DNA of 64,000 bases from contig NZ_CP029562.1 in assembly GCF_004136315.1 (NCBI RefSeq), forward strand, positions 6,037,501 to 6,101,500, given 5' to 3'. This stretch comes from Mesorhizobium sp. Pch-S. GTDB taxonomy: Bacteria > Pseudomonadota > Alphaproteobacteria > Rhizobiales > Rhizobiaceae. The number at the start of each line of letters is the position of its first letter. Position 1 is the first letter of the stretch. The notes under the pieces were generated by a model. The model searched no databases. It was given only the letters and a program-made list of their open reading frames with translations, and was not told where the DNA came from. This document shows, piece after piece, positions 16,256 through 35,376 of this stretch. Position numbers and translations under genes: made by a program.

Positions 16256-16330
16256 GGGCGATTAGCTCAGCGGGAGAGCACACCCTTCACACGGGTGGGG
16301 TCGTAGGTTCAATCCCTACATCGCCCACCA
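16256..16330 (+). tRNA. tRNA-Val (anticodon CAC)
   Basis: A full cloverleaf can be drawn. The acceptor arm GGGCGAT (16256-16262) pairs with ATCGCCC (16320-16326), the D arm is GCTCAGCGGGAGAGC, the anticodon arm is CACCC-TTCACAC-GGGTG with anticodon CAC, and the T arm is GTAGG-TTCAATC-CCTAC. The CCA end is encoded. Its 3' end is part of an 18-bp repeat that recurs at 35249, so it served as attachment site for the island downstream. Confidence 0.97.
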
Positions 16331-16843
16331 TTCTCTGCACCTTTTCGTATCCTTTGCAGCTTTGGGTGCCGGTATATGGCATAAATCTGGCACAGCCAGC
16401 GGGCTTGGGCAGACTAGCCCATTCCTGTGCCAAGTTGCGGATCAGGGTATCGAGCGAAAGCCGGCCGGCGAGCCACTTGTCGATGGCCCGCTGGCCGAGC
16501 AGATAGCAGGCCAGACGATCCTGCATGTCCGCGTCGAACTTCTCGCGTCCAGTGAGCCCGAGTTGCTGCCGCATCGTGGGAGCGTCGTGCGGATGATCTG
16601 GTACCGGCCAACTGCCGACGACTTCAGCTTGTTCTTCCTGTTGGCGAGCATCTTGGACTGCAGCGCTTCGATCTGGTCGAGCGTCATGCTGATGAGATCC
16701 ACGTCACCGCAGGTGTATGCGCCGTAGCCAAGCGCCTCGTTGTAGCCCCTGCCCTTGTCGGTGCCTTCAGACTTTCCCATGAGGTCGAGCATCGGGCGGT
16801 AGACGGCATAAGCGTCCACGGCCCGCACACTATTGCGTTCCAT
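16287..16843 (-). pseudogene. Phage endolysin (lysozyme-like), frameshifted and truncated at the tRNA
   Basis: Would cleave peptidoglycan at the end of a phage lytic cycle. ATG 16843 follows AAGGAA. The first frame reads YRPMLDLMGKSEGTDKGRGYNEALGYGAYT with the likely catalytic Glu, then MTLDQIEALQSKM and SSAVGRYQIIRTTL. It then loses homology near 16580; the expected TMRQQLGLTGREKFDADMQDR...WASLPKP continues in another frame, consistent with loss of one base. After LPKP (about 16400) homology ends, and the rest runs through spacer and the antisense of the tRNA. Remnant left by island integration or decay. Confidence 0.75.
16316..16333 (+). repeat. attL-like direct repeat in the tRNA-Val 3' end
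   Basis: CTACATCGCCCACCATTC, covering the 3' end of the tRNA gene plus three bases beyond CCA, is repeated exactly and in the same orientation at 35249-35266. The bases just outside differ on both sides, which defines an 18-bp core. Confidence 0.85.
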
Positions 16844-16951
16844 AGTTGGATTCCTTTCTGTGGAGAGACTTGTTCTGTCAGAAATAATGAACCCGCCGGA
16901 CGATCCAACGCAGGCGGGTTCACCAATCGGCTAATATGCTGGTGTAGATAG

Positions 16952-18622
16952 TCAGACCGAAGTGATCGTTACCCCGGCCGCACCATTGAGTGCGCCATTT
17001 TGACTGAAGTCATGGGATATGGCGCGGTACACCCGGCCCTTTGCAGCGGCGCCAGTTGGAAAGTCATAGCTGGAGGAACAATTCCCGTTGAAGCGGTCGG
17101 GGCCAACATCGATTGTGATGTTTGCGGAAAGCGATCCCAGTGTGAAACCCTTTCTGCTTGGACCGGCTGTCAGGATGTACTCGTTGCCTTTGCCCGCCAC
17201 GATACTCTCGCCGAAAATGTTCACGCCCAAAGTACCGTTGAAAACATTCCCCGTGATGTTCAGAAAACCAGATGCCTGGATGCCAACTGCGCCGTCACCA
17301 AAGACACATGAGGTGATCGTTCCGGTACAGTTCTCGATGTAAAGCCAGCCGTTTGTGGGGGCGAACCCGACAGATCCAACGTGGTCGTTGTTGTCCAGGG
17401 CCAGGCCATCGATGTTTCGTAAATCCCATCCGTTCTGCCCACCCAAGTTAATGGGGTTCATGATGCTGTCTTTGATGCTCTGGCGGGTTCTACGCCGTGC
17501 ACCTCGAAACTCGACAGCTTTGGTCGTCAAATCGTAGAACACGCAATCGCCGATGTGCGAGTTGGAGCCGCCCCAACTGAGATCCCCAGCGAGGGTTCTT
17601 GAAGACAAGCTCGCTGCAGCACCATCCAGGACGTATGTGCCGATACCGCCTGTCCCAGTGCCAAGGGATACAATGCTGCGACCTATGAGGCTGCCGGTTG
17701 TGGTATCCCAAATGCGGAGGTCGGTTCCAATCTCACCAGAAAGCATCGCTGTAACAGTGAGGGTGTTCCCGGAGATTGATCCCGTAAACACAGCGAGGCG
17801 ATTGTCATCCTCGATCCTGATGCCGCGCTCCGCACCTGTAAACACGCACTCCTTCGGATTGAAGAACTCATCATAGGCGATCGAAATGCAGGAGCGCGGC
17901 GTATACAGATATTGCGAGCCTCTGATGCCGAAAGTGCCGAATTTGCAGCGTTCCGGGTATGAGCCTGGCGATCCGATCAGCGACAGGATGTTGCCGGTAA
18001 ATCCGGACGTGGCGTAGCAAATATCGATATCGATCTGGCGGAATCCCCGAGATCCATTTCCGTACGCCTCGATCCCAAAACCGGACGATGTGCCGGTTAT
18101 AAGAATTGTCGTTGCTGCTCTCGCATAGATAGTTTTGCCACCACACCCCTGCCCCCGCCAGGTGAGATTGATGTCTTGAGTGATGCGGATCGCGCCGGCT
18201 GTAATGTTGAAGATGCCACGTCCAAAATGCAGTGTGCCCGACGTGTAGGCAGTGATGATTTTGTTCGTTAGACCGTCGTTCAGCGTGTCTCCATTACTGC
18301 GGAGAAACTCGATTGCGTTGAGGATGGCAGTCGTACTGTTGGCAGCCCCACCTGCAAGGGCCGCGGCATCCGTCTTATGCCCAATGGCACCAAACATTTC
18401 GACGGAGATGGGCTGCCCGATTGACAACTCGTACCACGTCGTTCCGCCGCCGCTGAGGGTGATCGAGAACTTGCCCGCGTGTGTCGGCTGCGCTGAGACC
18501 TTCTTGTACTGCGCTCCACCGCCGTCGCCTGCCGAGAAATAGCCGGCTGTAACCATGAAATTCGGCGCGACAGCCGGACTGTAGGCTTTCGCCTCATCTA
18601 GGGTGGCGAAGATATCAGGCAT
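16952..18622 (-). CDS. Phage tail-spike-like protein with beta-helix region
   Basis: Probable receptor-binding or depolymerising spike of a phage, 556 residues. The N-terminus MPDIFATLDEAKAYSPA and GYFSAGDGGGAQYKKV is a typical tail-spike head-binding segment. The central 150-450 region has the short hydrophobic/Asn-Gly strand pattern of a right-handed beta helix (pectate-lyase fold). Start ATG 18622 follows GAAAGGAAA; the frame stays open to 18982 but the added residues look non-coding. It lies 108 bp upstream of the endolysin remnant on the same strand. The catalytic activity, if any, cannot be seen. Confidence 0.7.
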   Translation of the reverse strand: MPDIFATLDEAKAYSPAVAPNFMVTAGYFSAGDGGGAQYKKVSAQPTHAGKFSITLSGGGTTWYELSIGQPISVEMFGAIGHKTDAAALAGGAANSTTAILNAIEFLRSNGDTLNDGLTNKIITAYTSGTLHFGRGIFNITAGAIRITQDINLTWRGQGCGGKTIYARAATTILITGTSSGFGIEAYGNGSRGFRQIDIDICYATSGFTGNILSLIGSPGSYPERCKFGTFGIRGSQYLYTPRSCISIAYDEFFNPKECVFTGAERGIRIEDDNRLAVFTGSISGNTLTVTAMLSGEIGTDLRIWDTTTGSLIGRSIVSLGTGTGGIGTYVLDGAAASLSSRTLAGDLSWGGSNSHIGDCVFYDLTTKAVEFRGARRRTRQSIKDSIMNPINLGGQNGWDLRNIDGLALDNNDHVGSVGFAPTNGWLYIENCTGTITSCVFGDGAVGIQASGFLNITGNVFNGTLGVNIFGESIVAGKGNEYILTAGPSRKGFTLGSLSANITIDVGPDRFNGNCSSSYDFPTGAAAKGRVYRAISHDFSQNGALNGAAGVTITSV

Positions 18623-19215: not shown

Positions 19216-21126
19216 ATGGAAAAACGTACTGATATTGAAGGGCTGCGAGCCATTGCAGTATCGTCTGTCTTATTGTTTCACTACGACAGATCTTGGCTCC
19301 CCGGCGGGTTCGTCGGGGTCGATGTTTTTTTCGTTATTTCCGGATACCTGATCACAAAGCGACTCGAAGAGAGTATAGCCCGGAATAATGGTCGGCTCCT
19401 TCCCGTCTTGTTCGATTTCTATGGCAGGCGCATTCGCCGTATCTACCCAGCATTGCTTGCTGTGCTAGCAACAACACTCGCAGTCGGTTGGTTTTTCCTC
19501 ATTCCAGACGACTACGCGCTGACTGGCGAGAGCGCAGCCTATGCAGCAGTTGGCGCTGGGAACCTCTTTTACTATTGGAATACGGGATACTTCGACAGGA
19601 GCGCTGAACTCCAATTGCTCCTCCATACGTGGAGCTTAGGCGCTGAGGAGCAATTTTATTTGGTGTGGCCATTCTTGCTTTTCACGCTTCTCACCGGAGT
19701 GAAAAGTAGGGGGTGGGTAGCAGTTGCTATTTCTGCGCTGATCGTGGTCGGCTTGCTCTACAGTGCTCGCACAGTGACCGTGGCGCCCAAGTCGGCATTC
19801 TATCTTCCGTTCGCGCGAGCTTGGGAACTCGGTGCTGGTGCGCTAATCGCGTTCCTGCCGACAATTTCGAACAGATGGCTCTCTGAAGTCTTCGGCCTGG
19901 CCGGGGCAGTGCTGATCGGGATATCGCTCTATTTGCTACACGGGACAGAAACGTCACTCGGTTTCTGGATGGTACCCGTAGTGCTGGGTTCCGTCTTAAT
20001 CATAGCGCCGAAGACGAAAACTCGAGTCGCCGAAGCACTATCCAGGCGCCCATTTGTTGCTGTCGGGCAGATCTCCTACAGCCTCTATCTCTGGCACTGG
20101 CCGATCATCACCTTCTATCGGATAGCCAACATGGAACAGCAACCATCAGGCTTGGCCGTGTTGGTGCTACTTTTTCTCACGTTCGTCGTATCGATTGCCA
20201 GCTACCGTTATATTGAGCAGCCGTTCCGCAAACTACCGATAGGACGCGCCCTAGCCACAATTCCTGTTGCAGCGGCGGTGGTCGCTGCCGGTCTCGTGAT
20301 TGATAGTCAATCTGGCGTGCCTTGGCGCTTATCGCCAGAAGCGACCGCCATGATCGCAAGCGCAAAAGATTACAGCGGCTCACGGCCGAAGTGCCACAGA
20401 GACGATGACCGAAACCCTCCCCCGGAGCAAAGCTGCGTGTTCGGATCGCCCAACGTACTGCCGGCCATTGCCGTTTGGAGCGATAGTCACGGCGTTGAAT
20501 TGGCAGATGCGCTTGGACAATTGGGAGAGGCCAAAAACCGCAGCATACTCAGCTTAACTTATAGTTCCTGTCCTCCCGCGCTTGGTTATGTTTCCCCAGA
20601 CCAAAAGAAGTGTCGCGAGTTCAATCAGAGTGCGGTTCAATTCCTGGTGCAAAATGCCAACATCAAGACGGTAGTGCTAACTGCATTCTACGAATATTAC
20701 CTATCCACTCCTGACCGAGCCACCTTCCGAACCGGGCTTGAAGACAGCATTTCACGGCTACAGGCCAGCGGAAAAAAAATCGTTGTGGTGGCCTCAAATC
20801 CAACGCCCGGCTACTCCCTGCCCCATGCGGCATCCAGATTGGCAATGGTAAAGCCCAATGCCGTCATCAACCTTTCCGTGTCAGATCATCGGAAAACATC
20901 TGGTGAGGCTCGTGCGATGCTCGACTCGATTGCTGCGCGGTACAAAAACGTATCCATCATCGACCCTGCGGACATGCTGTGTGGAGGCAGTATCTGTCAA
21001 ATGATCAGAGACAAGAGGCCGATCTTGTTTGACGATAATCACTTGACACTTAGTGGTGCGAAGCTGGTCGCAGGGATGATTGATTTGGACAAAGTCGATG
21101 CGAGCCAGAATCAATCGGGGCGATAG
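19216..21126 (+). CDS. OafA-type O-acyltransferase with C-terminal SGNH domain
   Basis: Inner-membrane acyltransferase that probably O-acetylates a surface polysaccharide (O-antigen, capsule or peptidoglycan). The N-terminal acyltransferase-3 domain starts DIEGLRAIAVSSVLLFH with the catalytic His22, followed by GGFVGVDVFFVISGYLIT and about ten membrane helices to residue 365. The C-terminal half is a periplasmic SGNH hydrolase-like domain: block I WSDSHGVEL with Ser at about 424, and DDNHLTLSGA near 606-615 with the Asp/His pair. Such genes are often carried by serotype-converting phages. Base composition is poorer in G/C than the core genes. Confidence 0.9.
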   Translation: MEKRTDIEGLRAIAVSSVLLFHYDRSWLPGGFVGVDVFFVISGYLITKRLEESIARNNGRLLPVLFDFYGRRIRRIYPALLAVLATTLAVGWFFLIPDDYALTGESAAYAAVGAGNLFYYWNTGYFDRSAELQLLLHTWSLGAEEQFYLVWPFLLFTLLTGVKSRGWVAVAISALIVVGLLYSARTVTVAPKSAFYLPFARAWELGAGALIAFLPTISNRWLSEVFGLAGAVLIGISLYLLHGTETSLGFWMVPVVLGSVLIIAPKTKTRVAEALSRRPFVAVGQISYSLYLWHWPIITFYRIANMEQQPSGLAVLVLLFLTFVVSIASYRYIEQPFRKLPIGRALATIPVAAAVVAAGLVIDSQSGVPWRLSPEATAMIASAKDYSGSRPKCHRDDDRNPPPEQSCVFGSPNVLPAIAVWSDSHGVELADALGQLGEAKNRSILSLTYSSCPPALGYVSPDQKKCREFNQSAVQFLVQNANIKTVVLTAFYEYYLSTPDRATFRTGLEDSISRLQASGKKIVVVASNPTPGYSLPHAASRLAMVKPNAVINLSVSDHRKTSGEARAMLDSIAARYKNVSIIDPADMLCGGSICQMIRDKRPILFDDNHLTLSGAKLVAGMIDLDKVDASQNQSGR

Positions 21127-21439: not shown

Positions 21440-22435
21440 TCAGACACCAATGCACCCTTTGCACGCCTTGATGCCTCCAAAACGTCGCGATCTATGCGCA
21501 TCTCGATATGGCTGCATCGCTTTGAGCCATAGGTAGCCCAAGCTCTGTCGACTGATATCCCCTAAGATAGCTCGTTTCTCGCCACCCGCTGAATATGATG
21601 CACCGCATAGAGGCACAACGCCGTCAAAATGGACGATCATGTGCTTAAGAGGCAGAGAACACTTCGGGTAAAGGTCTTCGCGTTGCTGTGGCGAATGAAA
21701 CACATTTGCGACGAGAGGAATTTCGGGCAACTGCATCAAGCGCTGAATCATCACAGTGTCAGCAAACTGTCGCCAAAACGAAACTTCGCGATTTATTGAA
21801 GGGGTATCGTCGGCGGGACCAACCATCAAACGTATGTTGATCTTTGAAGGTGATCCGAGTTCTTGCCGTAGTTCTTTTAACCGGCTCAGATTTGACACGA
21901 GACGATCAAAGCTACCGCGAACCCTGAGACGTTCATAGCCTTGTTTTCCTCCCACGTCGACTGACACTTCAATCAAATTCAACGGTGCTGATAGTAGCGC
22001 GCGAGGGATTTCCTCCGATCGCCATTGCCCATTGCTCACTATCGAAACCCAAGGGCTCGCTCGTGCCAGTTGGCTCGCAAAATCAGCAAATTGGGGATGA
22101 AGGGTCGGCTCCCCCCCTCCAATGCGCACGCGTTTTATCTTGAACTGTTGAATGTCATCGCGCACGCGGTTGAAGGTTTCTATCGTCATAGTGCCGCGAG
22201 GCCGACTATCAGCTTCGACATTGCAGTAGACGCACCGCAAATTGCATGAGTTGAGAAATTCGACGGAAAGAATCGGCGGGGTGTCTGCGTCGCGCAGCCA
22301 AAATGGCACCGCGGTGCGCGCCAAGTTTGTTGCAGGTACCCCCTCACGGAGCGCAGCCAACACTATCGTCGTATAAGGTCGCAGCCTTGAAACAATGCGT
22401 TTGAAGCGACTACTGTTGTCATAGGTCGCAACCAT
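21440..22435 (-). CDS. Radical SAM/SPASM-type protein
   Basis: The radical SAM cluster motif CNLRCVYC lies near residues 49-56, followed by the SAM-binding GGGEPTLHP and strand VSIVSNGQW. The C-terminal part has a SPASM-like Cys set: YPKCSLP, GVVPLCGASYS and KACKGCIGV. Such enzymes bind auxiliary Fe-S clusters and modify peptides, sugars or cofactors; in glycan clusters they can be sugar epimerases or dehydratases. Start ATG 22435. It faces away from the glycan operon at 23135, so co-transcription is excluded. No precursor peptide gene is evident beside it. Substrate unknown. Confidence 0.85.
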   Translation of the reverse strand: MVATYDNSSRFKRIVSRLRPYTTIVLAALREGVPATNLARTAVPFWLRDADTPPILSVEFLNSCNLRCVYCNVEADSRPRGTMTIETFNRVRDDIQQFKIKRVRIGGGEPTLHPQFADFASQLARASPWVSIVSNGQWRSEEIPRALLSAPLNLIEVSVDVGGKQGYERLRVRGSFDRLVSNLSRLKELRQELGSPSKINIRLMVGPADDTPSINREVSFWRQFADTVMIQRLMQLPEIPLVANVFHSPQQREDLYPKCSLPLKHMIVHFDGVVPLCGASYSAGGEKRAILGDISRQSLGYLWLKAMQPYRDAHRSRRFGGIKACKGCIGV

Positions 22436-22614
22436 ACCGTCACTCCGTAATGGGCTTGGAGAGCCGCATTCACGCTATCCAAAGTAAGTCGTGCGCCGCA
22501 TGTCCGCAAGCGCTCCGTCACCCAAAGAGAATAGAGTTGGAAGGCCACATAGATCGCAGGCAGTGCGAACACCATCGCGACACTGGCTATCGCAGTTGCG
22601 ATGACGTTATTCAC
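22363..22614 (-). other. Possible remnant of a small phage membrane protein (Rz-like)
   Basis: A frame from GTG 22614 begins with a hydrophobic segment (VIATAIASVAMVFALPAIYV) and then charged sequence, and overlaps the 5' end of the radical SAM gene. Lysis cassettes place such a spanin beside an Rz1-like lipoprotein, as here, but the sequence alone is weak. Confidence 0.25.
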
Positions 22615-22635
22615 GATCTGATCTGGTCATGTCGC

Positions 22636-22854
22636 TCACCGGATGCCCCTATTTCCAGCGGCCGCGCCAACCTGATTGTAGTTGGCGACTTGCTCAGCGA
22701 ATGGTCGATCCTTGGAGATGATCCCGTGCCGGGTATACGCATTCGGCTTCAACCGAGCCCGGCCGTCGCATTCACTCGCGGGAGCCTGCGTCTGACATGC
22801 GGCCACCGAGAGCAGCAACACAGGCCAGAGTCGTCCATCGCAGAACTGCGGCAT
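22636..22854 (-). CDS. Putative phage Rz1-like lipoprotein
   Basis: 72-residue protein with a lipoprotein signal peptide (LWPVLLLSVAAC, lipobox Cys at about 20) followed by CDGRARLKPNAYTRHGIISK and DRPFAEQVANYNQVG. That layout recalls small lysis-cassette lipoproteins in rhizobial phages (remembered, not searched). It would help disrupt the outer membrane in lysis. It lies apart from the endolysin remnant with the acyltransferase in between, suggesting rearrangement of an old lysis cassette. Confidence 0.4.
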   Translation of the reverse strand: MPQFCDGRLWPVLLLSVAACQTQAPASECDGRARLKPNAYTRHGIISKDRPFAEQVANYNQVGAAAGNRGIR

Positions 22855-23134
22855 CGGCTTTTGCTCCTTTCGCTGGGAATGATCACGGAACGATTGAGCA
22901 TAGCCGAGCGCTCATGAGCCTTTGCTTTGCCCCCAACGCCAGTTGACGCGCCAGCGGCGCAGTGTGCTCACTTCTGGGCGTCAACCGGACGCTTCGAGGC
23001 CCCCGGTGCGGCGTGTTTCAGTCGACGGCCCCTACGGTTGGCAACCTAAGCCAGCTTAGATTGAGCGCAAAAGTCTTGTTAGACGCCGCCAAACGAACTA
23101 CAGGCCCCTCAGCTAACGAATTCTGGGGATAGTA

Positions 23135-24190
23135 GTGACGCAAAAAATCGTTCGAAAGGGAGGGTTCAAAAGCCATCACGATCACGGCCAATTAGAGCCG
23201 GACTTGCTGAAGCTGAAAGATGACCTGACGTTCGCCGTAGTCGTTCCATGCTACAATGAAGCTGGCAAGATTGCGGCAACGCTCGAAACGATCCCACCAT
23301 ATATCGACACGGTCTACGTCGTTGACGACCAGAGCAAAGACGACACACTTAGCGTGATCGAGCAGGTTGCACGGAACGACTCCCGCGTGAACATCATCCG
23401 ACACGAGGTCAATCGTGGCGTCGGCGCGGCGATTAGTACCGGATACATCCAGTGCGCGAAAGACGGTATCGATATTGCCGTTGTGATGGCCGGTGACGGC
23501 CAGATGGACCCCGACGACCTACCGGCCCTCCTCATCCCCGTAATCAAGGATCAGGCTGACTACGTCAAAGGGAATCGCTTCTTCCACCACACAGGTACGG
23601 CCGAGATGCCGCGCCATCGCCTTTTCGGGAACCTTGCACTTTCTGTTATGACCAAAATCGTGTCGGGTTACTGGCACGTCTCTGATACCCAGTGTGGGTA
23701 CACGGCCATCAATCGAGAGGCCTTAGAGGCGGTCGACTGGACTGCAGTGTATCCACGTTACGGTTGTCCGAACGACATCTTGACAAGGCTCAACGTCGCG
23801 GACATGCGAGTGGCAGAAGTCCCCGTCAAAGCACGCTACGGCGAGAACTGGTCTTCGGGGATGAAAGTTGGCCGGATCCTGGGCCCGATGTTGCGGCTTC
23901 TGTCGCGCCTGTTCTTCTATCGAATGTACTACAAGTACGTTTTTTTGAACGGCCACCCGATTATCATCTATTATGCAGCTGCTGCAGCCTTTGGCGCCTT
24001 TGGCGGCGGCCTCTTCATCTATATGCTTATCAAGCTGCTCGCCACGAGTGTAATCCCCAAAGCAGCCTTGATCATGTTCGGGTTCTCTTTCGTGGTGATG
24101 ATCCAGCTTTTGCTAGCTGCGTTCAGTCTCGACTACCAGGCCAACCAGTCCATTTCAGTCATCGTTCGAGATCCCCGTGGCCGTAGATAA
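23135..24190 (+). CDS. Family 2 glycosyltransferase, polyprenyl-phosphate-hexose synthase (DPM1-like)
   Basis: Predicted to transfer a hexose from a nucleotide sugar to a polyprenyl phosphate at the inner face of the cytoplasmic membrane. GT-A core: FAVVVPCYNEAGKI near 33-46, VVDDQSKDD near 62-70, and the metal-binding GDGQMDPDDLPA near 120-131. The acceptor-loop region NRFFHHTGTAEMPRHRLFGN and YGCPNDIL also fit DPM1/DpsG-type enzymes. Two membrane helices close the protein (about 270-325). GTG 23135 is the likely start. First gene of a seven-gene operon; its end overlaps the next gene by 14 nt. Confidence 0.88.
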   Translation: MTQKIVRKGGFKSHHDHGQLEPDLLKLKDDLTFAVVVPCYNEAGKIAATLETIPPYIDTVYVVDDQSKDDTLSVIEQVARNDSRVNIIRHEVNRGVGAAISTGYIQCAKDGIDIAVVMAGDGQMDPDDLPALLIPVIKDQADYVKGNRFFHHTGTAEMPRHRLFGNLALSVMTKIVSGYWHVSDTQCGYTAINREALEAVDWTAVYPRYGCPNDILTRLNVADMRVAEVPVKARYGENWSSGMKVGRILGPMLRLLSRLFFYRMYYKYVFLNGHPIIIYYAAAAAFGAFGGGLFIYMLIKLLATSVIPKAALIMFGFSFVVMIQLLLAAFSLDYQANQSISVIVRDPRGRR

Positions 24191-25064
24191 ATGCCCAATC
24201 TGTGGCGGTTCCGGCTCTCTCCAGATGTCGGTCTCCACTCCATATCTCGACAAACAGCAGCGCTACGACGTGTTGCAATGCAGCGTCTGTCGTCATCGCT
24301 GGTGCGCCGGGGACACCAGCGATGCGCTACTCACTGAGATCTATTCAAAGAGCTTCCATCAGACGACGCAACAACTCGCTGAAAACCAATCCAGAAATAG
24401 CTCGTCACCAATCATCCTCAATTCCAAGGCGCGCGCGGAGTGGCTTTGCCAGCAAGGTCATTCCGGAACCTTGTTAGATGTCGGCGCCGGCAACGGATAC
24501 TTCGTCCGGGAGGCAAATGAGGTAGGCTTCAAAGCGGAGGGCCTAGATATCGCCGAGGAAGCGGCTGTTCGAGCGGCTTCCCTTGGAGTGACAGTTCGTA
24601 TCGGCAACTTTCTCGCGGACGACGTAAAAGTCGGAAAATACGATGTCATCACAATGTGGGATGTCCTTTGCGGATTTCCCGATGTGAACGCCGCAATTGC
24701 CAAGGTAGCGCGACATCTTGAGCCAGGCGGAGCGCTCGTGTTGACGATCGCCGATGGTCAGTCCAGCACCTCCAAACTAGCCGGACGCTATTGGCCGCTT
24801 CTCATCCCACCGGTGAATCTGCACTATTTCTCCGAGGCCAGTACCAAGCGTTTGCTTGAGTCTTACGGAATGGAGATCTTAAGCTATAAGGCTCAAGGGA
24901 AATGGCTGAGTGTGCGTTTCCTATGGCAAAAGCTGCTGCGGACGCTCCGCATAACTCCGCTTGAGACCGTAGTCTCCGGCTTCATATCGCCTCACTGGAA
25001 GGTCAAACTTAACTTGGGCGATATCGTTACGGTCGTCGCCCGCCTGAGGCCGACATCAGGATAA
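24177..25064 (+). CDS. Class I SAM-dependent methyltransferase with N-terminal zinc-binding motif
   Basis: Predicted small-molecule or sugar methyltransferase. The N-terminus has two Cys pairs (CPICGG at 6-11; CSVCRHRW near 33-40), like the zinc ribbon of sugar C-methyltransferases. The Rossmann methyltransferase core follows: motif I LLDVGAGNGYFV near 99, GLDIAEEAA, then YDVITMWDVLCGF and LEPGGALVLT. GTG 24177 lies inside the GT2 gene. In a glycan operon it probably methylates a sugar or lipid-linked intermediate; the acceptor is unknown. Confidence 0.85.
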   Translation: MAVDKCPICGGSGSLQMSVSTPYLDKQQRYDVLQCSVCRHRWCAGDTSDALLTEIYSKSFHQTTQQLAENQSRNSSSPIILNSKARAEWLCQQGHSGTLLDVGAGNGYFVREANEVGFKAEGLDIAEEAAVRAASLGVTVRIGNFLADDVKVGKYDVITMWDVLCGFPDVNAAIAKVARHLEPGGALVLTIADGQSSTSKLAGRYWPLLIPPVNLHYFSEASTKRLLESYGMEILSYKAQGKWLSVRFLWQKLLRTLRITPLETVVSGFISPHWKVKLNLGDIVTVVARLRPTSG

Positions 25065-26275: not shown

Positions 26276-27639
26276 AAAGGCTACATCCTCTCGAACAAGT
26301 CGTTGCTAAGAGACAGTGCATGGGTTGCAGCCTCTGCACGCTAATTCAACCGTCGTCCCAAAATGAAGCCGCGCCTTTGGTCACGATGCGGTTCGATGAG
26401 AAGCAAGACTTGTTTGTTCCACGGGTCGAGAACTGGAAGGAAGGCGATCCAGAAGGCGAATACGCTTGTCCCGGCGAAAAAATGGACATGGTTTCACTAG
26501 CTGAGCAACGATTCGGTCGTCTGCCGACCGACCCCATCCTGGGCGAGGTGGTTGCGCTCAGAGCGGCCTATTCTTCGGATGAGGTTGAGCGGCAACGATC
26601 GGCCTCAGGTGGCGTAGTGCCGGCTATTCTCGACCACCTGCTTTCTACACGGGCCATTGACGCAGCGTACTCTCTTCGGTCGGACACTACGCCCGACGCG
26701 ACACAAGGGACGGTGGTCCGGCAATCGAGCGATCTGATTTCCCTGCACGGCTCGGTCTATCATCCCGCTCGGCTAGGTACATCGCTAGACGCACTGCTGA
26801 AGAGTGATGCGCGCTTCGCGTTTGTCGGGCTGCCATGTGAGATCGCAGGACTCGAGATGCTTAAATCCAAGCACCAAGTCCTCCGTGAACGCCATATCGT
26901 TTCAATCGGACTGTTCTGCGGCGGAATCAATACCTTCAAGGGTATCGACTACTACCTTGAGAAATTCGGGTTCCAGCTGAAAGACGTCGAGAAGATCGAC
27001 TATCGCTATGGAAGCTGGCCTGGCCGGATCAGAGCCAAGCTCAAAGATGGCTCCGAGCGCGAGGTTGCACGTATCACGGGAAACTCCCGCTGGAACATTC
27101 TACGTTATGTCATCGCTTTCCAGGGGTATTGGATGCTGCCCCGGTGCCGCATCTGCCCGGATCAAATTTCCGATTTTGCCGATATCGCTGTTGGCGACCC
27201 CCACCTGCCCCGCTTCAGGGCGAAGGGAGGCAAGGGCTTCTCGGCAGTAATAACGCGAACCAAACGCGGCGAAGAGTTAGTGGCTCAGGCTGTCGCCGCC
27301 GGCCGGATGTGTGAGGAACTGATCTCACGAGACGAGGTCATACATTCACAAGGCTATACGCTCGACAATCGACGCCACGCCAAGGTGTATGCGAAGGTCG
27401 GGAAGTTCTTCGGTTTCCAACCGCCAGAAATGACCACCTATCCCGATCTTGAGGCAACCGAGGCTTCGCGCCACTATCGATATGCGATTGTCGACATGGC
27501 TAAGTTGCGGTTGCCGAAGAACCGGTTTGTTCGAGCGTTCTATCTGCCTTGGCAGGTATTCGAATATCTCTTCATCACCTTTGCCCCGTCGCTGATTGGA
27601 AAGCGCTTAGCAAAGCTCTTGCGCAATGATACCGGCTGA
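26272..27639 (+). CDS. FrhB-like (coenzyme F420 hydrogenase/dehydrogenase beta subunit family) protein
   Basis: Iron-sulfur flavoprotein-like oxidoreductase. The N-terminus has C16-x2-C19-x2-C22 (QCMGCSLCTL) and EYACPG near residue 65. The FrhB N- and C-domain signatures follow: RSASGGVVPAILDHLL near 104, FVGLPCEIAGL near 183, VSIGLFCGGINTFKG near 212 and RCRICPDQISDFADIAVGDPH near 290-310. Family members occur in surface-polysaccharide clusters beside pyruvyl-transferase-like genes and may act as F420- or flavin-linked sugar reductases; the cofactor here is unknown. GTG 26272 overlaps the upstream stop by 4 nt. Confidence 0.85.
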   Translation: MKRLHPLEQVVAKRQCMGCSLCTLIQPSSQNEAAPLVTMRFDEKQDLFVPRVENWKEGDPEGEYACPGEKMDMVSLAEQRFGRLPTDPILGEVVALRAAYSSDEVERQRSASGGVVPAILDHLLSTRAIDAAYSLRSDTTPDATQGTVVRQSSDLISLHGSVYHPARLGTSLDALLKSDARFAFVGLPCEIAGLEMLKSKHQVLRERHIVSIGLFCGGINTFKGIDYYLEKFGFQLKDVEKIDYRYGSWPGRIRAKLKDGSEREVARITGNSRWNILRYVIAFQGYWMLPRCRICPDQISDFADIAVGDPHLPRFRAKGGKGFSAVITRTKRGEELVAQAVAAGRMCEELISRDEVIHSQGYTLDNRRHAKVYAKVGKFFGFQPPEMTTYPDLEATEASRHYRYAIVDMAKLRLPKNRFVRAFYLPWQVFEYLFITFAPSLIGKRLAKLLRNDTG

Positions 27640-28406
27640 TGACCTTCTCGCTGTCCTACTATCACAAGCTGATCGTCAATCTCCGGAGTGCCGGAAGAAC
27701 GTTCTCGACTGTGGTTGCGGCCACTGAGAAGTCGGGGGCTGAAGTCGGTCGGCTTTGCATTTTGCGCCATGACGTGGATCGCATTCCGCGACGATCATTG
27801 GCGATGTCAAAGATCGAAAACCAACTCGGTGTTAAAGCCACCTACTATTTCCGTTGTTCGAAAGATGGCCGATTTCCCACGGACTATGTCGAGCAGATAG
27901 CGGCGCTTGGGCATGAAGTCGGTTATCACTTCGAGACCCTTTCCCAATTTCAGGGAAACTCCACAAAAGCAGTTGAAGCGTTCGAACGGAACTTGGCCCA
28001 TTTCCGATCCATCGCTCCTTGCAAAAGCGTAAGCATGCACGGGGCACCACTGACACGGCACAATAATCAGGATCTGGCTAAGTTCGTGAACTTCGCAGGT
28101 CTTGGGTTGATAGACGCTGTATACGATCTGGCGAGCCTCTATCCGCTATACTTTACCGACACCGGAGGCGCTTGGAACGTCTCTGGGCACAGAAACCGTC
28201 GCGACATCGTCGGTGAACTAGCTAGGTCTGTGCCCGACTTCCTCAGGGCTTCGGAACTTGCCGCATACAGCACGGACTTCCCTCGCCCGCTGTACTTCAA
28301 CACTCATCCGGAACGATGGCCTCAGTCCGGCGCGGGAAGCATCCAAGTCGGCGTAACAGACACTCTTACGAACATCGCCAAACTGGTCGTCAGGTCCGTA
28401 ATGTGA
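27639..28406 (+). CDS. Polysaccharide deacetylase-like (NodB-fold) protein
   Basis: The metal-site motif LRHDVDR (near 42-48) and the GHEVGYHFE motif (near 91-99) are characteristic of carbohydrate esterase 4-like deacetylases. SMHGAPLTRHNN follows, and NTHPERWPQ near the C-terminus supplies a further His. Predicted role is de-N-acetylation of a glycan or lipid-linked sugar, but the protein is a diverged family member and activity is unproven. No signal peptide, so a cytosolic substrate is likely. ATG 27639 overlaps the previous stop by one base, and the end overlaps the flippase-like gene by 4 nt. Confidence 0.78.
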   Translation: MTFSLSYYHKLIVNLRSAGRTFSTVVAATEKSGAEVGRLCILRHDVDRIPRRSLAMSKIENQLGVKATYYFRCSKDGRFPTDYVEQIAALGHEVGYHFETLSQFQGNSTKAVEAFERNLAHFRSIAPCKSVSMHGAPLTRHNNQDLAKFVNFAGLGLIDAVYDLASLYPLYFTDTGGAWNVSGHRNRRDIVGELARSVPDFLRASELAAYSTDFPRPLYFNTHPERWPQSGAGSIQVGVTDTLTNIAKLVVRSVM

Positions 28407-29308
28407 GTGGGATGGGCAAATCCATCGACGATTCGCATCGATCCGTGGTGTCCCGTGCGCTGGAGTGGCTGACCCCTGTTTGGATTGTTGCGTCCATTGT
28501 TGCCATTGCGTGGCAGGTTTCGAAGCATTGGGGCGAGATCATCTCGCAACCGCTGCGCCTGGACCTCTTGTCTATTTCGCTGATCGCGACACTCGGTGCG
28601 AAGTTCTTTTCCGCTTTGCAGGTTAGACGATCCCTCCGGCAATCCGGTGCCGAGGTTCCGGAAAAGGCCTCTTTCTATGCATACAGCATGGCCGATTTGG
28701 CCAAGTACCTGCCGGGAGGCATTTGGGGATTTGTGGGCAGAATTGCCCTCTATCGAAAGCTCCGCCTCGATCGAGCCTGCATAACACGATCGCTCATCAT
28801 CGAGCAGGTTTGGCTGATAGGCGGATCAATCGCGATTGGTTGCCTCCTGTTGGCGGTTACAGACGTGGCATGGCAGTTCCGCGCCGCTGCCATCGCCCCC
28901 GCGATTGCATGGATTGTCGCCCTGGTCGTCACTCGTCGCTTCGCTACTGCTGCAACAGGCTCGTCAGTGAAGCTGATCGAATTACTGTTCCTGCAGGCGG
29001 GGCTTTGGGGACTGGCGGCCGTTGGCTTCGGAGTGCTTCTTCCATATGATGTGCTCAAATCGGGAGCTGCATTCTCCCTCGCTTTTGCCGCCGGCCTGAT
29101 GGTGCCTTTTGCTCCAAGCGGTATTGGTGTACGCGAACTTGTGGTTGGAACTTTGCTGACCCCCAGCATACCGTTAGGGGATGTCGTACGAGCACTTATT
29201 CTGAGCCGGGCAGTGTGGATCGTCGCAGACTTACTGTTCGCGCTAGTTGTGCTGCTGTCTTGCCAGAAATCATGGGCGGAACAGGTTGAGGTGACAACGC
29301 CGCGATGA
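28403..29308 (+). CDS. Lysylphosphatidylglycerol-synthase-TM-like membrane protein (UPF0104/flippase-like)
   Basis: 301-residue protein with about eight hydrophobic segments. Family-typical blocks are YAYSMADLAKYLPGGIWGFVGR near 92-113 and FSLAFAAGLMVPFAPSGIGVRELV near 226-249. Relatives include the membrane domain of MprF and AglD-associated proteins, with proposed roles in lipid-linked sugar flipping. GTG 28403 overlaps the previous stop as GTGA; the open frame extends further upstream but only within the deacetylase gene. In this operon it is a candidate flippase for the product of the DPM1-like enzyme. Confidence 0.75.
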   Translation: MSGMGKSIDDSHRSVVSRALEWLTPVWIVASIVAIAWQVSKHWGEIISQPLRLDLLSISLIATLGAKFFSALQVRRSLRQSGAEVPEKASFYAYSMADLAKYLPGGIWGFVGRIALYRKLRLDRACITRSLIIEQVWLIGGSIAIGCLLLAVTDVAWQFRAAAIAPAIAWIVALVVTRRFATAATGSSVKLIELLFLQAGLWGLAAVGFGVLLPYDVLKSGAAFSLAFAAGLMVPFAPSGIGVRELVVGTLLTPSIPLGDVVRALILSRAVWIVADLLFALVVLLSCQKSWAEQVEVTTPR

Positions 29309-31182
29309 TGGCTGTTCTCTATGTCGTCCAGTTTCTCTTGGTTTGTCTTGCACTCGCAGCATCGGCTCGACAATTCAGCAGATGCGTTGGAGTGCGATCC
29401 GCACCTTGGGCCATGTTTAGCATCGCCCTGACACCACATATCCTTGCACTGCTCACTCTAGCACTTGCAGCCGCATGGCCTGGTGCACCGCGAATAGCGT
29501 TCCTGTTGGTGCCTGCAGCTCTCGGAACTATTATCCTCGTCATCGTCCGTTCTGGCTTAGATGACCTCCATAGCGCAGCGGTCTCGATGGCACGCAACAC
29601 GAAACCTTTCCCGCTTCTATTATCCATCGCAGCCGCATGCGTGTCGTTGCTTCTTATCGTCTCAATTTTCAACGCAATCAAAGCGCCGATCATTGGGCAC
29701 GACGCCTTGATCTATTTGAATGAAGCAAAAGCATTTGCAGAGAACAGAGATCTGAAAGGAATTCCTGGGTTCGAGGAAGGTATTGGAGAGGTCGTAAAAG
29801 CGCATCCCCATCAATTTCTGTGGCAAGCCTTCATATCTCAGGCCCTGATGGCAACCGATGGTTCCCTTGGCTACCCGAACGACGTCGTAGCACGTGGCGC
29901 GATTCTGATCACGCTTCCGTTGATGGTTATAGCAGTTACCGCACTTGCCTGCTCGGTAACATCGGGGTGGCCAGCCCTTCTAGCAATACCACTAGTCTTG
30001 CTCACCCAGCAGATCAGATACATTCCCGCCGCCGGCAGTATCGACGCATTTCGGATCATCCCATTTATCGGGGTGATGTGTCTCGCACTGGGGGTAGTCG
30101 GGCGGAAAGAACGCCTGACCCCCGCCTTTTTCGTGAGTTTGGTAGTGCTATCCACCCTCACCTCAGTCTCTCACACGATAAACGTCGTCTTCCTAGCACT
30201 CTTGTTTGCCAGTCTTGTTCCCCTCGCACCGTTCACTCGAATTACCTGGCCCAACATCGTTCTTGTGGAAATTGCTGCAGTGATCTCCGCGCTTCCCAGC
30301 TTGGCATATTTCGCGGAAAATTGGTTCAGATACGGCAGCCCGTTTGGGCTCGGCTTCGACTACTATTTCTACCGCAATTCGCCGCTCTGGGCCGTATTCT
30401 CCGAACAAGATGCCTGGACAATCCATCGAAACCCAATCCAGGCACTCGTGGCCTTCGCAACTCTGCAAGGTCAGATCCTCACCTACGTCGCCATTTCGGC
30501 AGCGGCCATAATACTTGCGTTTTGCAGGAAGCATGCACCCGAACTGGCGCTGATTGCCGGCGTATTCCTATTACTTGTTTTCATCCCGCTTATCTCATTG
30601 GGAGAAGAAGTAACTCTGCAAGGAGCACTGCTCAGCAATCCGCGGTATGGCCTGTTGGTGTTTTCTTTGGCGCCCGCCCTGCTGACTGGAACTATCGGGA
30701 TATTGCTGCACAAGTTCGCCGAAGCATTCCCTGAGGCTACGCCAATTCAAAAAGCGGGCTCCTTCGGCATTGCGGTTGTCATTTCACTATATGCCGCCAA
30801 AGTCGTTTTGTACTGGGCATTAAACACGCCGGAAAGCGCGATGGCCTACCTGAACGAAAGCGAACTCAAAGTTGCGTCTATTTCCGATCAGCTACCTGCC
30901 GGTGCCAACTGGCTCACTGACCGATACTCCGTCGCATACTACTCGGATCGCATCCCTATTAAGATCACTAGCAAATTGGGGGAACCATTTATCCGTGCAA
31001 AATCAACGGAGGAAATAGACCGTCTCCTTGAAGATATGAAGATCGAAATGGTTGCGCTCTACACGCCAGAATGGTGGGACGGTACACCGCTCTACCAAAA
31101 CCTGACACATCGTGACGGTGTAGAAATCATCCAGACCAAATACTGGCGGATTTTCATCATTCGAAAGAAACAAAAAGGCTGA
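29305..31182 (+). CDS. Large polytopic membrane protein, GT-C glycosyltransferase-like
   Basis: 625 residues with about 12 hydrophobic segments up to residue 510 and a C-terminal soluble domain of about 115 residues. In the first large outer loop is APIIGHDALIYLNEAKAFAE (near 129-148), an acidic motif placed as in GT-C enzymes that use polyprenyl-phosphate sugars; HPHQFLWQAFISQALM follows. The C-terminal soluble part (LPAGANWLTDRYSVAYYSD) also fits GT-C proteins. Acceptor unknown. ATG 29305 overlaps the previous stop by 4 nt. Last gene of the operon. Confidence 0.65.
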   Translation: MMAVLYVVQFLLVCLALAASARQFSRCVGVRSAPWAMFSIALTPHILALLTLALAAAWPGAPRIAFLLVPAALGTIILVIVRSGLDDLHSAAVSMARNTKPFPLLLSIAAACVSLLLIVSIFNAIKAPIIGHDALIYLNEAKAFAENRDLKGIPGFEEGIGEVVKAHPHQFLWQAFISQALMATDGSLGYPNDVVARGAILITLPLMVIAVTALACSVTSGWPALLAIPLVLLTQQIRYIPAAGSIDAFRIIPFIGVMCLALGVVGRKERLTPAFFVSLVVLSTLTSVSHTINVVFLALLFASLVPLAPFTRITWPNIVLVEIAAVISALPSLAYFAENWFRYGSPFGLGFDYYFYRNSPLWAVFSEQDAWTIHRNPIQALVAFATLQGQILTYVAISAAAIILAFCRKHAPELALIAGVFLLLVFIPLISLGEEVTLQGALLSNPRYGLLVFSLAPALLTGTIGILLHKFAEAFPEATPIQKAGSFGIAVVISLYAAKVVLYWALNTPESAMAYLNESELKVASISDQLPAGANWLTDRYSVAYYSDRIPIKITSKLGEPFIRAKSTEEIDRLLEDMKIEMVALYTPEWWDGTPLYQNLTHRDGVEIIQTKYWRIFIIRKKQKG

Positions 31183-31259: not shown

Positions 31260-32549
31260 CTAACTTGCAGCGCTGATCCCAGTGGCGCCCGATTCGCTCC
31301 TTCGCGGGAAACTCCACACGGTCCACATTCCCCAGTACAAAAGGCCCAAAGAGGATAAATCGCCGGCCTTCATATGGTGAAGCAGAATCATGCAAAGCAC
31401 AGAACCCAGACCGAGAGCAACCTGTGCTCGTCGAAGGTTTCGAAACTGCGCTGCATAATAAGCTGACCCCACCATCATAAACATGAACAGAAGGGTGGCA
31501 ATCACACCTACCTCGGCCCAAATCTCGAGCGCCACATTGTGAGGATAAAGCAGTTTCGGGTTTCTCAGCGCGACGGCACCAAGGCCCGACGCGCGCGGAT
31601 CCCCATTTTCGGTGCTCAATCTGGCTGCGTCCTTTGAATCCGCTTCCTGCCCCCCGTCTAAAGCGTCAGATGCTGCAGCAATTCGCGACTCGACAGCTTG
31701 GGAACCTATTCCGCCCATGAGTTCCGACCAATAGATCGTGTGAGCTGGGTTCAGTACGCCAAAGATAAAGATCCCCGCCGCGATGGCGAATGTCGGCAGA
31801 ATCCTAATTTTCGCGGTACGCCGAATATTGAAAATGATCGCCCAAACGCAGGCAGCAATGAGAATCGTTGCGGTAAACACAACGTCAGCTCGCTGATTGA
31901 CTACAAAAATGCACGTGAAGAAGAAGGCGCAAATCACCGCAATAAGGGAATTTCGGCGCCAATCGTCGGTTACAAATCCGAGGGGCGCCAAAGCCGCAAC
32001 AGCGTAGATTATCCCGTGCCCCACCACTGAATAACCGCGGTTGCGGTCAGCGAGATAACTCCATGCCAAATCGAGATCGTCGGTAAAAATGTATTTGCTG
32101 TCCGAAATCAGACGCGCCGCGGCAATCGCACCAATAACGACAAATCCGACAAGAGCCCCACGACTATAATTCAAGGTCAGGTTTCGACTGAACAGCGCAG
32201 CCGCGAAAACAACAGCAAGCGCCGGAATTGCGTTCACCAGGATGACAACCAACTTTGCGCGATAGTACGTTACCGGTGCAGAAATCCAGTTATGAATGTT
32301 CGTTGCATATTCCCATTGGGGAGGGCTCGCTGCTAGTATAATAAACACCAGCAAAAGCACCGCGCATGCAGAAAACAATGTCGCACGCTTCGTCGGGCGT
32401 GCCCAACGCTTCATTTCACAAAGCGCCAAAACCAGCGTTATGAGCAAGCAAACTATGGCAATGTAGCGTCCTGAGGTACCGCCAACGCGGCCAAGAAATG
32501 GAGCCAAGACAGTCGCACTCGAAGCGACGCCAACGACAAACTGAAGCAA
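31260..32549 (-). CDS. O-antigen ligase/polymerase (WaaL/Wzy-like)
   Basis: 429-residue membrane protein with about 11 hydrophobic segments and a large outer loop (about 285-345) that ends in YPHNVALEIWAEVGV, the Wzy_C/WaaL signature with its conserved His. Predicted to polymerise or ligate polyprenyl-linked O-antigen or exopolysaccharide units in the periplasm. The start appears to be TTG 32549, with GGGAGA about 8 nt before it. It is convergent with the glycan operon. Sequence cannot distinguish ligase from polymerase. Confidence 0.8.
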   Translation of the reverse strand: MLQFVVGVASSATVLAPFLGRVGGTSGRYIAIVCLLITLVLALCEMKRWARPTKRATLFSACAVLLLVFIILAASPPQWEYATNIHNWISAPVTYYRAKLVVILVNAIPALAVVFAAALFSRNLTLNYSRGALVGFVVIGAIAAARLISDSKYIFTDDLDLAWSYLADRNRGYSVVGHGIIYAVAALAPLGFVTDDWRRNSLIAVICAFFFTCIFVVNQRADVVFTATILIAACVWAIIFNIRRTAKIRILPTFAIAAGIFIFGVLNPAHTIYWSELMGGIGSQAVESRIAAASDALDGGQEADSKDAARLSTENGDPRASGLGAVALRNPKLLYPHNVALEIWAEVGVIATLLFMFMMVGSAYYAAQFRNLRRAQVALGLGSVLCMILLHHMKAGDLSSLGLLYWGMWTVWSFPRRSESGATGISAAS

Positions 32550-32894: not shown

Positions 32895-32929
32895 CGACCG
32901 TCGCACTGAAGACGAACGGTCGCTTTTTT
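32895..32929 (+). terminator. Orphan intrinsic terminator on the plus strand
   Basis: CGACCGT (32895-32901) pairs with ACGGTCG (32916-32922) and is followed by CTTTTTTG. No plus-strand gene ends upstream within 1.7 kb; the nearest gene points the other way. Confidence 0.55.
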
Positions 32930-32945
32930 GCGACGGCTTGGTGTA

Positions 32946-33284
32946 CTATGGCTGTCGCCGCTTGCCATCTACGACTAGCAGGACACTAGCGTCGAGTGCA
33001 GCGACCGCATTGCTCAATCCCACCTGAGAATCAGGCATCCGATCCAGTCGGTTGAGGGTCGCCCACCGAAACTCATTGTTGGAGGTGGCCGCTTCAATCT
33101 GCTTGGTCTCCACAGCTGTGAGTTTGGTGGACAGCACTATCGTTGCCGTAGCCGCTTCCGAGGCCGAAGACTCCGCGCTCGATACCACAGCCTTGGCCGC
33201 CACGATCCGGCTCGTCAGGTCGAACTCTATGCGATCGATCGAGCCGCCCGCCGGCTGGAATTTGGAAGACGCGGTCCCCCTCAA
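32946..33284 (-). pseudogene. Possible fragment of a phage tail/host-specificity protein
   Basis: A 112-codon minus-strand frame rich in Ala, Ser and Thr (AAKAVVSSAESSASEAATA) then LTAVETKQIEAATSNN looks like the coiled, repetitive segment of phage tail-tip proteins. A second minus frame at 33435-33680 could be another piece of the same gene. No full domain is visible. Low certainty, but it fits the phage origin of the island. Confidence 0.3.
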
Positions 33285-33745
33285 GGTCGTCTATGCGCGC
33301 CAAATCTAGCGAAGTGTGGGGGCGCCAGGCTGTGCGAGAGAATTTCGCAGGTAATCTTTCTTTTCGTATCGCTGGACGTCCAAAGCTAGCGGGTAAGTGA
33401 ATCCGACATGGTTCATTGCTTCCCGCAATAGCCATCAACGATCGTGTCGCCTAGCCGGATTCTGGGAAGAGACGAAGTCGATAACTCTACCTCCCGAAGA
33501 AATGTGTGAAGAAGCGCGTATGGTCAGTAGGGGTGAGAACCCTTCCCTACGATGTGTTAGGCACGCCTCTTCCGAACTTATCACGTCCTTGACCCTTCCA
33601 GTTGCAGTGCCCGTGGTGAGAGCAAACTGGATTTGTGCTAGGCTAGCCCTTTGATGCCACCAGCTCGCTCTGAGTTGCAAGCTACACGCCTTGTCAATCT
33701 TTACTACTCAAGGCATTGGATGCTGGCAGAGCCTTGTGGCTGCGC
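33285..33745. other. Intergenic stretch, no certain gene
   Basis: Holds the minus-strand frame 33435-33680 mentioned for the possible tail fragment, and the upstream region of the GT4 gene. I recognise no promoter. Confidence 0.3.
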
Positions 33746-34924
33746 ATGGAGAGAGTTTCGTTGCTCAATATTCACATCTATCCGAGTTCGATGACTCATG
33801 AGAGCCGCCTGTTTCGAGAGACTGCAGTCATCGAACAGATGAACGGCTTTAGTGAAATCGAAATTGTTGGCGTTCGAGCTACCGGGCTTCCAAATCAGGA
33901 ACAAATTAGCCCAACGCGGCGAATTGTCCGACTTGGACCGCAAAAATGGGACGGTCAAGCGAAAGCGATTAGCTATGCACTGTGGATGCTCAATGCCATC
34001 TGGTATTGTTGTTTCGTCCGTAGGCCGCAGTTCATAAACTGCCACAGCCTGACAACTTTACCCATTGGCGTGCTGGCAAAGCTTTTTGCCGGATCGACGG
34101 TTATTTACGACGCTCACGAGCTGGAAACCGAAACCAACGGTCTCCAAGGCTTCCGCCAGGCACTTAGCCGATGGCTAGAACGCGCACTTATCCGCTTCTG
34201 CGACCACAGCATTTTCGTCAGTAAGTCGATCCAAGAATGGTACGTGAACGCATACGGTCTAACCGATACAAGCGTCATCTATAACGTGCCGGCCGTCGCT
34301 TCCGCCATTGGCAAGGGAACGGCTCTGCGTGACCAACTCGATATCCCCGCAGAAACAAAGATCTTCCTTTACTTGGGAGCGCTTGCTCCAGGCCGCGGAA
34401 TCCTGTCAATCTTGGAAGCATTTAAGCGGATGCCTGAATTTTCCGTAGTCTTCATGGGAACCGGCTCGCTAGAAAATCAGATTAAGGATGCAGCGAAATC
34501 GCTTCCCAATGTTCACTACGTATCTCCGGTGCTTCCGGCAGATGTCGTCGAAACTGCATCGTCTGCCGATTTCGGTATTTCCATGATTGAACCGACTTCA
34601 TTGAGCTATAAGTTCGCGATGCCTAACAAGCTGTTCGAGTATCTCGCCGCAGGCTTGCCTGTCCTGGCATCGCCGATCCCCGAACAAGAAGCTCTTGTTA
34701 GGGAGCACGGCGTTGGGGTCGTTACCGCCGGGCTATCGGCAGATGACATCTATGTCGCTGCTCAAGATATCGCCACCCAAGGCGACATACTTAGGGGCGG
34801 AATTTCGTCCGCTCTGGCTGCCTATAGCTGGAAAAATCAGTCGATGGATATCCAGCTGATCTATAATCGCTTCAACGTTCGGTCATTTCCTGGATACATG
34901 AGGCAGGGATTGGGGCCGAAGTAG
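33746..34924 (+). CDS. Family 4 glycosyltransferase (GT-B fold)
   Basis: Retaining sugar transferase acting at the inner membrane face in polysaccharide assembly. The C-terminal nucleotide-sugar domain is clear: IFLYLGALAPGRGILSILEAF near 213-233, VVFMGTGSLENQI, and the EPTSLSYKFAMPNKLFEYLAAGLPVLAS segment near 289-316 with the GT4 Glu residues. The N-terminal domain has STVIYDAHELETE and FCDHSIFVSKS. ATG 33746 (MERVSLLNIHIYPSS) is preferred over TTG 33716 because the family starts here. Stands alone near the right border of the island. Sugar specificity unknown. Confidence 0.85.
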   Translation: MERVSLLNIHIYPSSMTHESRLFRETAVIEQMNGFSEIEIVGVRATGLPNQEQISPTRRIVRLGPQKWDGQAKAISYALWMLNAIWYCCFVRRPQFINCHSLTTLPIGVLAKLFAGSTVIYDAHELETETNGLQGFRQALSRWLERALIRFCDHSIFVSKSIQEWYVNAYGLTDTSVIYNVPAVASAIGKGTALRDQLDIPAETKIFLYLGALAPGRGILSILEAFKRMPEFSVVFMGTGSLENQIKDAAKSLPNVHYVSPVLPADVVETASSADFGISMIEPTSLSYKFAMPNKLFEYLAAGLPVLASPIPEQEALVREHGVGVVTAGLSADDIYVAAQDIATQGDILRGGISSALAAYSWKNQSMDIQLIYNRFNVRSFPGYMRQGLGPK

Positions 34925-35376
34925 TTTCTTCGTCAGATTTCCTTGATCCCGACGCTGTAGTGCAGCCTTGCCAAAGCGCCTGCTCTGAAATTTATGCTGT
35001 CGCATCCCAGTTGGTAATAGCATGTCGTTCGACCGAGAAGTACGAAGACGACGAAGGCAAAGAAAGCCACGGAACGGCAACGCGACGGTCTGCAAGGAAG
35101 CGCAAAGCCGAAGGCAGATCGTTTTGTTGGAATCGAAGATCGACGGTATCCACGGCATGGCCGACCGGATCAGTAAGAGCCAGGTCGCCGTTGATCTTAC
35201 GCGCAGGTGCATCAAGCGGTCGATCATTGCCCAAGATAAAACCGGGGTCTACATCGCCCACCATTCCGCATTCTCGGATAGCGACCTCTCAGAACATCCC
35301 TGGATTTCGGTCCCTCTTCTCACGGCAATTCGAAGCGTGACCGAACAAGCGGCAATCCAGCCTTGGACCGCTGCTT
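34925..35376. other. Right border region of the island, no recognised gene
   Basis: Contains the attR-like repeat at 35249-35266. Open frames on both strands (for example plus 35022-35384) cross the repeat and lack recognisable domains; no integrase remnant can be read here. Confidence 0.4.
35249..35266 (+). repeat. attR-like direct repeat of the tRNA-Val 3' end
   Basis: Exact copy, same orientation, of 16316-16333. The rest of the tRNA is not present here, as expected when an element integrates at a tRNA 3' end and leaves the intact gene at the other border. Confidence 0.85.

Follow-up and report, generated by a model that had tools for sequence, protein, structure and literature searches.

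The 64,000-base stretch of the Mesorhizobium sp. Pch-S genome analyzed here (the window) contains a tRNA-Val(CAC) gene whose 3' end recurs in direct orientation before a conserved L,D-transpeptidase gene (Table 1). Enclosed by the two copies are broken pieces of phage genes and, between these scraps, three uninterrupted AT-richer gene blocks consisting mostly of glycan genes (block 1, 19216-22435; block 2, 23135-32549; block 3, 33716-34924). A first-pass annotation had described everything between the copies as phage remnants and surface-glycan genes, which is nearly right: also present in the interval are genes for a radical-SAM and an FrhB-like protein, ORFs that match no family, as well as some anonymous DNA.

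Table 1. Features in and beside the tRNA-Val island, in window coordinates; pp1 is a prophage-like region of the same genome.
Feature	Position	Strand	Evidence
HAD-family phosphatase gene, flank; phosphoglycolate-phosphatase-like by position	15463..16143	+	Pfam HAD_2, 124.7 bits
tRNA-Val(CAC), insertion target	16256..16330	+	tRNA detection; Rfam agrees
Left 18-bp repeat, attL-like	16316..16333	+	Window and whole-genome repeat search
Scrap D: frameshifted, truncated phage endolysin gene (5' part)	16417..16804	-	85.6% to pp1; PHROG endolysin matches of both frames
Scrap C: tailspike body, 556 aa from ATG, without homologues' N-terminal part	16952..18622	-	29-32% to Pseudomonas phage tail fibres
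AT3-SGNH O-acyltransferase (OafA/Oac type), block 1	19216..21126	+	Pfam Acyl_transf_3 and SGNH; phrog_6705 O-antigen acetylase, E 1e-145
Radical SAM/SPASM protein, block 1	21440..22435	-	Pfam
Scrap B: lysis-region gene at the holin position, unnamed, plus small phage ORF (5' half)	22529..22915	-	81.8% to pp1
GT2 glycosyltransferase, block 2	23135..24190	+	Pfam
Methyltransferase, block 2	24177..25064	+	Pfam Methyltransf_23
Polysaccharide pyruvyl transferase, block 2	25070..26275	+	Pfam PF04230, 90 bits; CsaB model 79 bits, below its cut-off
FrhB/FdhB-like Fe-S protein, block 2	26272..27639	+	Pfam
ORF without family match, block 2	27639..28406	+	No match in family scans
Hydrophobic ORF without family match, block 2	28316..29308	+	Family scans
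Predicted GT-C-like membrane glycosyltransferase, block 2	29305..31182	+	AlphaFold model, pLDDT 74.5; Foldseek AftA, AglB, DPY19, ArnT, TM ~0.4
Putative O-antigen polymerase/ligase-like (Wzy) membrane protein, block 2	31260..32549	-	Wzy_C 19.3 bits vs cut-off 31.7
Scrap A: small phage ORF, 3' half (5' half in scrap B)	33042..33267	-	71% to pp1
GT4 glycosyltransferase, block 3	33716..34924	+	Pfam
recE-type exonuclease gene scrap	35022..35251	+	80.7% to pp1; pp1 gene is PHROG exonuclease VIII
Right 18-bp repeat, attR-like	35249..35266	+	Window and whole-genome repeat search; relatives' tRNA ends
L,D-transpeptidase gene, other flank, conserved	35377..37272	-	Pfam YkuD; present in 61/61 genomes

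An exact direct repeat of the tRNA-Val 3' end

The repeat CTACATCGCCCACCATTC was found at both positions on the same strand, exactly as the first-pass annotation had claimed. It comprises 15 nt of the tRNA and 3 beyond and is exact over 18 bp and no more; no repeat shared by the tRNA region and 16434-36500 is longer. Its two copies lie 18,933 bp apart. Allowing up to three mismatches, the window contained no further match (0.05 expected from shuffles). The 6,619,214-base genome contained the two exact copies, which settles the annotation's question about further ones, and two matches with two mismatches; since the reversed control also gave one, we regard these as background. The shuffle expectation and the restriction to two exact copies in the genome rule out a chance repeat, and the lack of a third exact copy in the genome rules out a common tRNA-derived repeat.

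A 16-mer core of the repeat, sought in nine genomes (reversed control 0), was double in this genome (G000), G008, G046 and G052, and single in G142, G098, G053, G054 and G001. The second tRNA-end copy is direct and in the same interval in G008 (17 bp exact, at 786 bp) and in G046 (30 bp, at 2813 bp), where about 14 kb more lies between that copy and the transpeptidase gene. The two copies of G052 are on two contigs and have 48 bp in common. Among the 48 relatives' loci with a usable tRNA, two had a direct second copy and none an inverted one (reversed control 0); the remaining 7 of 55 loci, which lack a tRNA in the expected orientation, were excluded from these figures. In 5 of 60 relatives, G004, G014, G033 and G044 (loci L042, L052, L069 and L080) and G023, the tRNA-Val gene and about 38 bp upstream of it are inverted relative to the phosphatase gene.

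Base composition and missing integrase

The insert differs from its surroundings in base composition, as the annotation had noted, with 51.5-57.3% G+C per kb (17 to 35 kb) against 60.8-61.2% in the flanks. By part, G+C is 51.9-54.4% in the cargo blocks, 55.6% in the tailspike, 55.2% in the recE piece and 57.9-61.9% in the other scraps. The report of no visible integrase also held: all seven genome-wide matches to PF00589 lie outside the window, and a local integrase profile had no match in the island. Together, the tRNA 3' end with direct repeats, the absence from close relatives described below and the base composition are those of a tRNA-associated genomic island from which the integrase gene is missing. 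Integrases are often lost from old islands, so the missing gene weakens the description as a mobile island and not as an island. Pfam scans of the larger island ORFs found no conjugation families; with no integrase either, an integrative and conjugative element was ruled out.

The tRNA-Val interval is a hotspot

The phosphatase gene adjoins tRNA-Val in most of 61 genomes, and the usual layout is phosphatase gene, tRNA-Val, a variable interval and the transpeptidase gene. Both flank genes were on one contig and in order in 52 of 60 relatives (the exceptions being G003, G012, G018, G023, G041, G052, G055 and G059, which are left out of the interval sizes), with the tRNA and the transpeptidase gene about 0.65 to 27 kb apart and, in 21 of the 52, more than 10.5 kb between the phosphatase and transpeptidase genes. 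This interval is a hotspot across the genus.

The nearest relatives lack the insert, as the annotation had expected. Homology of the window with G053 and G054 stops at 16331-16333 and restarts at 35376-35377; between tRNA and transpeptidase gene, G053, G054 and G098 hold 1.0, 1.4 and 0.9 kb of other DNA, respectively. In the fourth nearest relative, G142, the transpeptidase gene was absent from the 14 kb examined, and this genome is not usable as an empty site. When 17 island ORFs were compared with 62 loci of 58 relatives (G018 and G023 left out), the single match was to an acyltransferase-like stretch in G050, at 34%. These loci, and an FrhB-like gene confined to 1 of 146 genus genomes (E<=1e-40), namely this one, rule out a genus-wide gene set at this place.

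Integrases do occur at this interval in relatives. G052 has a 480-residue frame with Phage_integrase and Arm-DNA-bind_3 domains (L096, 15063-16502); in G142, a frame some 1.1 kb away from the tRNA matches the local integrase profile (E 1.3e-19), and G001 has an integrase fragment. The G052 tyrosine integrase lies within 100 bp of the distal 48-bp tRNA-Val repeat and is a candidate enzyme for the site. As other recurrent cargo of the hotspot we observed a large-protein family (mean 1420 aa) in loci of 22 genomes and a second (mean 1228 aa) in 11 genomes, example loci being L083 (G047) and L089 (G057); by eye, these proteins resemble P450/peroxidase fusions and subtilases.

The annotation had further predicted that relatives would show tRNA-Val followed by sequence like that from 35267 onward, and this stands for three bases. 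The tRNA end reads CTACATCGCCCACCATTCCGC in G053, G098 and G142, though not in G054, matching the right copy over 21 bp and the left over 18; after the repeat, the right copy reads CGC and the left TCT. In the more distant relative G041, the tRNA end is followed by ATTCT, like the left copy. Beyond the three bases, likeness does not rise above shuffles: for the 110 bases right of the repeat against the tRNA flanks of the four nearest relatives, 297 to 805 of 1000 shuffles reach the score, as may be expected because the interval differs even between close relatives. A match of the right flank to G098 (E=4e-4) was rejected; it is carried by the tRNA end, without which 297 of 1000 shuffles score as high, so only the three extra bases were counted. 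This pattern fits an attL made of tRNA and foreign DNA and an attR made of foreign DNA and old chromosome, on the strength of three bases in relatives that share ancestry.

Phage scraps related to a resident prophage

Two prophage-like regions reside elsewhere in the genome, each with an integrase near one end: pp1 (~5,592,886-5,658,710; 59.1% G+C), with perfect 47 bp end repeats overlapping tRNA-Pro, and pp2 (~5,819,578-5,849,104), with perfect 40 bp end repeats overlapping tRNA-Ser. It is the 5' part of the tRNA genes, not the 3' part, that these end repeats overlap. The pp1 endolysin is a 100% match to a 66,884-base IMG/VR contig.

Judged by identity, the scraps derive from a relative of pp1; this kinship with a resident prophage of the host genome is what is new here. 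The recE match to pp1 ends 3 nt into the right 18-mer. The two halves of the small phage ORF are in swapped order with broken ends 10.7 kb apart; those ends share the motif TTCCAA(CTCT)ATTC (14 nt at 22529-22542, 10 nt at 33258-33267). Searches of phage collections with 32560-33715 (DNA) and 32946-33284 (protein) found no match; despite this, the genus genomes showed the ORF at 32946-33284 to be phage-derived, with relatives of the scrap A ORF in 15 of 144 genomes, this one included. The strands of the scraps agree with one inverted prophage, and their order is recE-A-B-C-D in the island against recE-C-D-B-A in pp1, where C is compared by gene kind only because pp1 contains nothing that closely matches the island tailspike. 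The scraps thus present what a grounded (cryptic) prophage would, broken or partial temperate-phage genes that can still be identified (four scraps 71-86% identical to pp1), and no recognizable prophage gene order remains.

The tailspike was found in 1 of 144 genus genomes (E<=1e-15), this one. Ten homologues have 45-252 more N-terminal residues than the island protein. The predicted structure is a beta-helix (mean pLDDT 84.8), for which the best PDB matches were GH110 galactosidases and phage depolymerase tailspikes at modest TM scores (0.26-0.47).

Glycan cargo genes

The cargo blocks most likely build or decorate an envelope polysaccharide. To judge from the enzyme families, the product is probably a modified envelope polysaccharide, perhaps pyruvylated and O-acylated. 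It is a fair inference from gene content that the island, if its genes are expressed, would change the surface polysaccharide of its host, as the first-pass annotation had proposed. O-antigen-modifying enzyme genes lie beside phage genes here, as in serotype-converting loci.

Assignments within block 2 differ in strength. That of ORF 29305..31182 as a GT-C-like glycosyltransferase rests on its predicted fold, and that of ORF 31260..32549 as Wzy is weak; among the 7998 best-sharing candidates scored in the protein searches, the latter had no match outside its own cluster at E<=0.001. These two proteins stand for clusters of four members, on 5 and 9 contigs respectively, so near-identical copies may exist elsewhere. 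The ORF at 27639..28406 looks NodB-deacetylase-like by eye, from its motifs. A scan of a genome collection with the FrhB-like protein found one Nitrospiraceae MAG, which has only FrhB and the next ORF in common with the island; the two (26272-28406) are adjacent there as well (L112, 10001-12030; 53% and 42% identity) and are possibly a conserved pair.

Origin of the island

We consider the locus best explained as a genomic island anchored at tRNA-Val and built on a decayed ('grounded') prophage that has lost its integrase and carries glycan cargo, and give this a probability of about 0.72. A temperate phage related to pp1, or an element with pp1-type DNA, would have entered at tRNA-Val, where site-specific recombination in the last 15 nt of the tRNA plus 3 nt would have produced the 18-bp direct repeat. 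Integrase and excision functions and nearly all phage genes would then have been lost, the remainder decaying and rearranging to leave the recE, endolysin, lysis-region and tailspike scraps, and glycan blocks would have been gained and kept. We infer the action of an integrase because the tRNA end is repeated and relatives have integrases at the same site. In favor of a decayed prophage are the strands of the pp1-type pieces and the ending of recE at the right repeat. Against it, the right junction lies inside recE, where no phage attachment site is known, pp1 and pp2 are bounded by longer repeats at different tRNAs (Pro, Ser), no integrase remains, and the case for the DNA right of 35266 being chromosomal depends on three bases, the next 110 being not significant. 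Given the junction inside recE and the wrong order of the scraps, a simple single prophage is not enough.

The cargo may have arrived in several ways. Its G+C, 51.9-54.4% against 59.1% in pp1, makes it look separately acquired from the phage. Each of the three glycan blocks sits at a break in phage DNA, and the largest is framed by the swapped halves of one phage gene with the same motif at both ends, as if a circle of phage module and glycan genes had been opened inside the small phage gene. A tentative idea, to which we give low odds, is that the scraps are more than random debris and that glycan blocks were captured stepwise on the late region of a pp1-type prophage, which acted as their landing pad. 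It is also rather unlikely that the phage itself owned the glycan genes and used them for lysogenic conversion, in the manner of serotype-converting phages, and that they are not later or separate cargo: the acyltransferase matches a phage O-antigen acetylase family (phrog_6705) and the tailspike adjoins it, but the cargo is 5-7 points lower in G+C than pp1, no match of the cargo to pp1 or pp2 was seen beyond the phage scraps, and no relative came up when viral contigs were scanned with the pyruvyl transferase, tailspike and acyltransferase.

A further possibility, which we think doubtful, is that successive elements accumulated at tRNA-Val, the right repeat being a leftover of the oldest, with phage and glycan parts inserted separately and inner repeats lost. 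The second tRNA-end copy 2.8 kb into the G046 interval, with some 14 kb beyond it, the very different DNA in this interval across the genus and the difference in G+C between cargo and phage pieces would agree with such a history; only two core copies are left in this genome, however, and scraps of pp1 type, their strands fitting one inverted prophage, occur in the middle as well as at both ends. The right junction inside recE, the scrambled scraps and the missing integrase could alternatively point to illegitimate or homology-assisted joining at the tRNA end, with the 18 bp as a by-product. This is highly improbable, given that integrases classically target tRNA 3' ends such as the one repeated here, that the unrelated insert of G008 has a repeat starting at the same base, and that G052 has an integrase at its repeat.

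Comparison with known elements

An island built on a grounded prophage has precedents. E. coli DLP12 at argU is a grounded (cryptic) prophage with a 47 bp far-end repeat, and such prophages have in common with the island a tRNA 3'-end site, a far-end repeat, loss of the ability to excise and insertions of useful genes (PMC6379469); the island differs in retaining far fewer phage genes, as scraps, with glycan blocks making up most of the element. Rhizobia likewise offer tRNA targets: there is a Sinorhizobium meliloti tRNA hotspot with attP sites containing 17-18 bp of the tRNA end (PMC11476347) and a Bradyrhizobium symbiosis ICE that integrates at tRNA-Val (PMC9174649, PMC11837538). Unlike these, the island has no ICE genes or integrase, its interval and contents differ, and the Bradyrhizobium isoacceptor may be another one. 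With the serotype-converting phages Shigella SfI, E. coli Kapi1 and Salmonella epsilon34, it has in common O-antigen-modifying genes and a tailspike phage; those are functional phages, whereas the island, at most a putative conversion locus, has about ten glycan-type genes among broken scraps. Among the papers brought up by literature searches, no title or abstract opening described a prophage-borne glycan island at this tRNA-Val site.

The island is a clear but largely ordinary example of bacterial surface-gene exchange, a concrete case of a soil-type bacterium gaining envelope-polysaccharide genes; a single genome shows the hotspot, the scraps of a dead phage and a living relative of the latter. 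Envelope glycans in rhizobia-like bacteria have a bearing on phage entry and on plant recognition, through which islands like this one may determine phage range and host interaction. The resident prophages and the tRNA-Val integrases of relatives could still feed and move islands of this kind.
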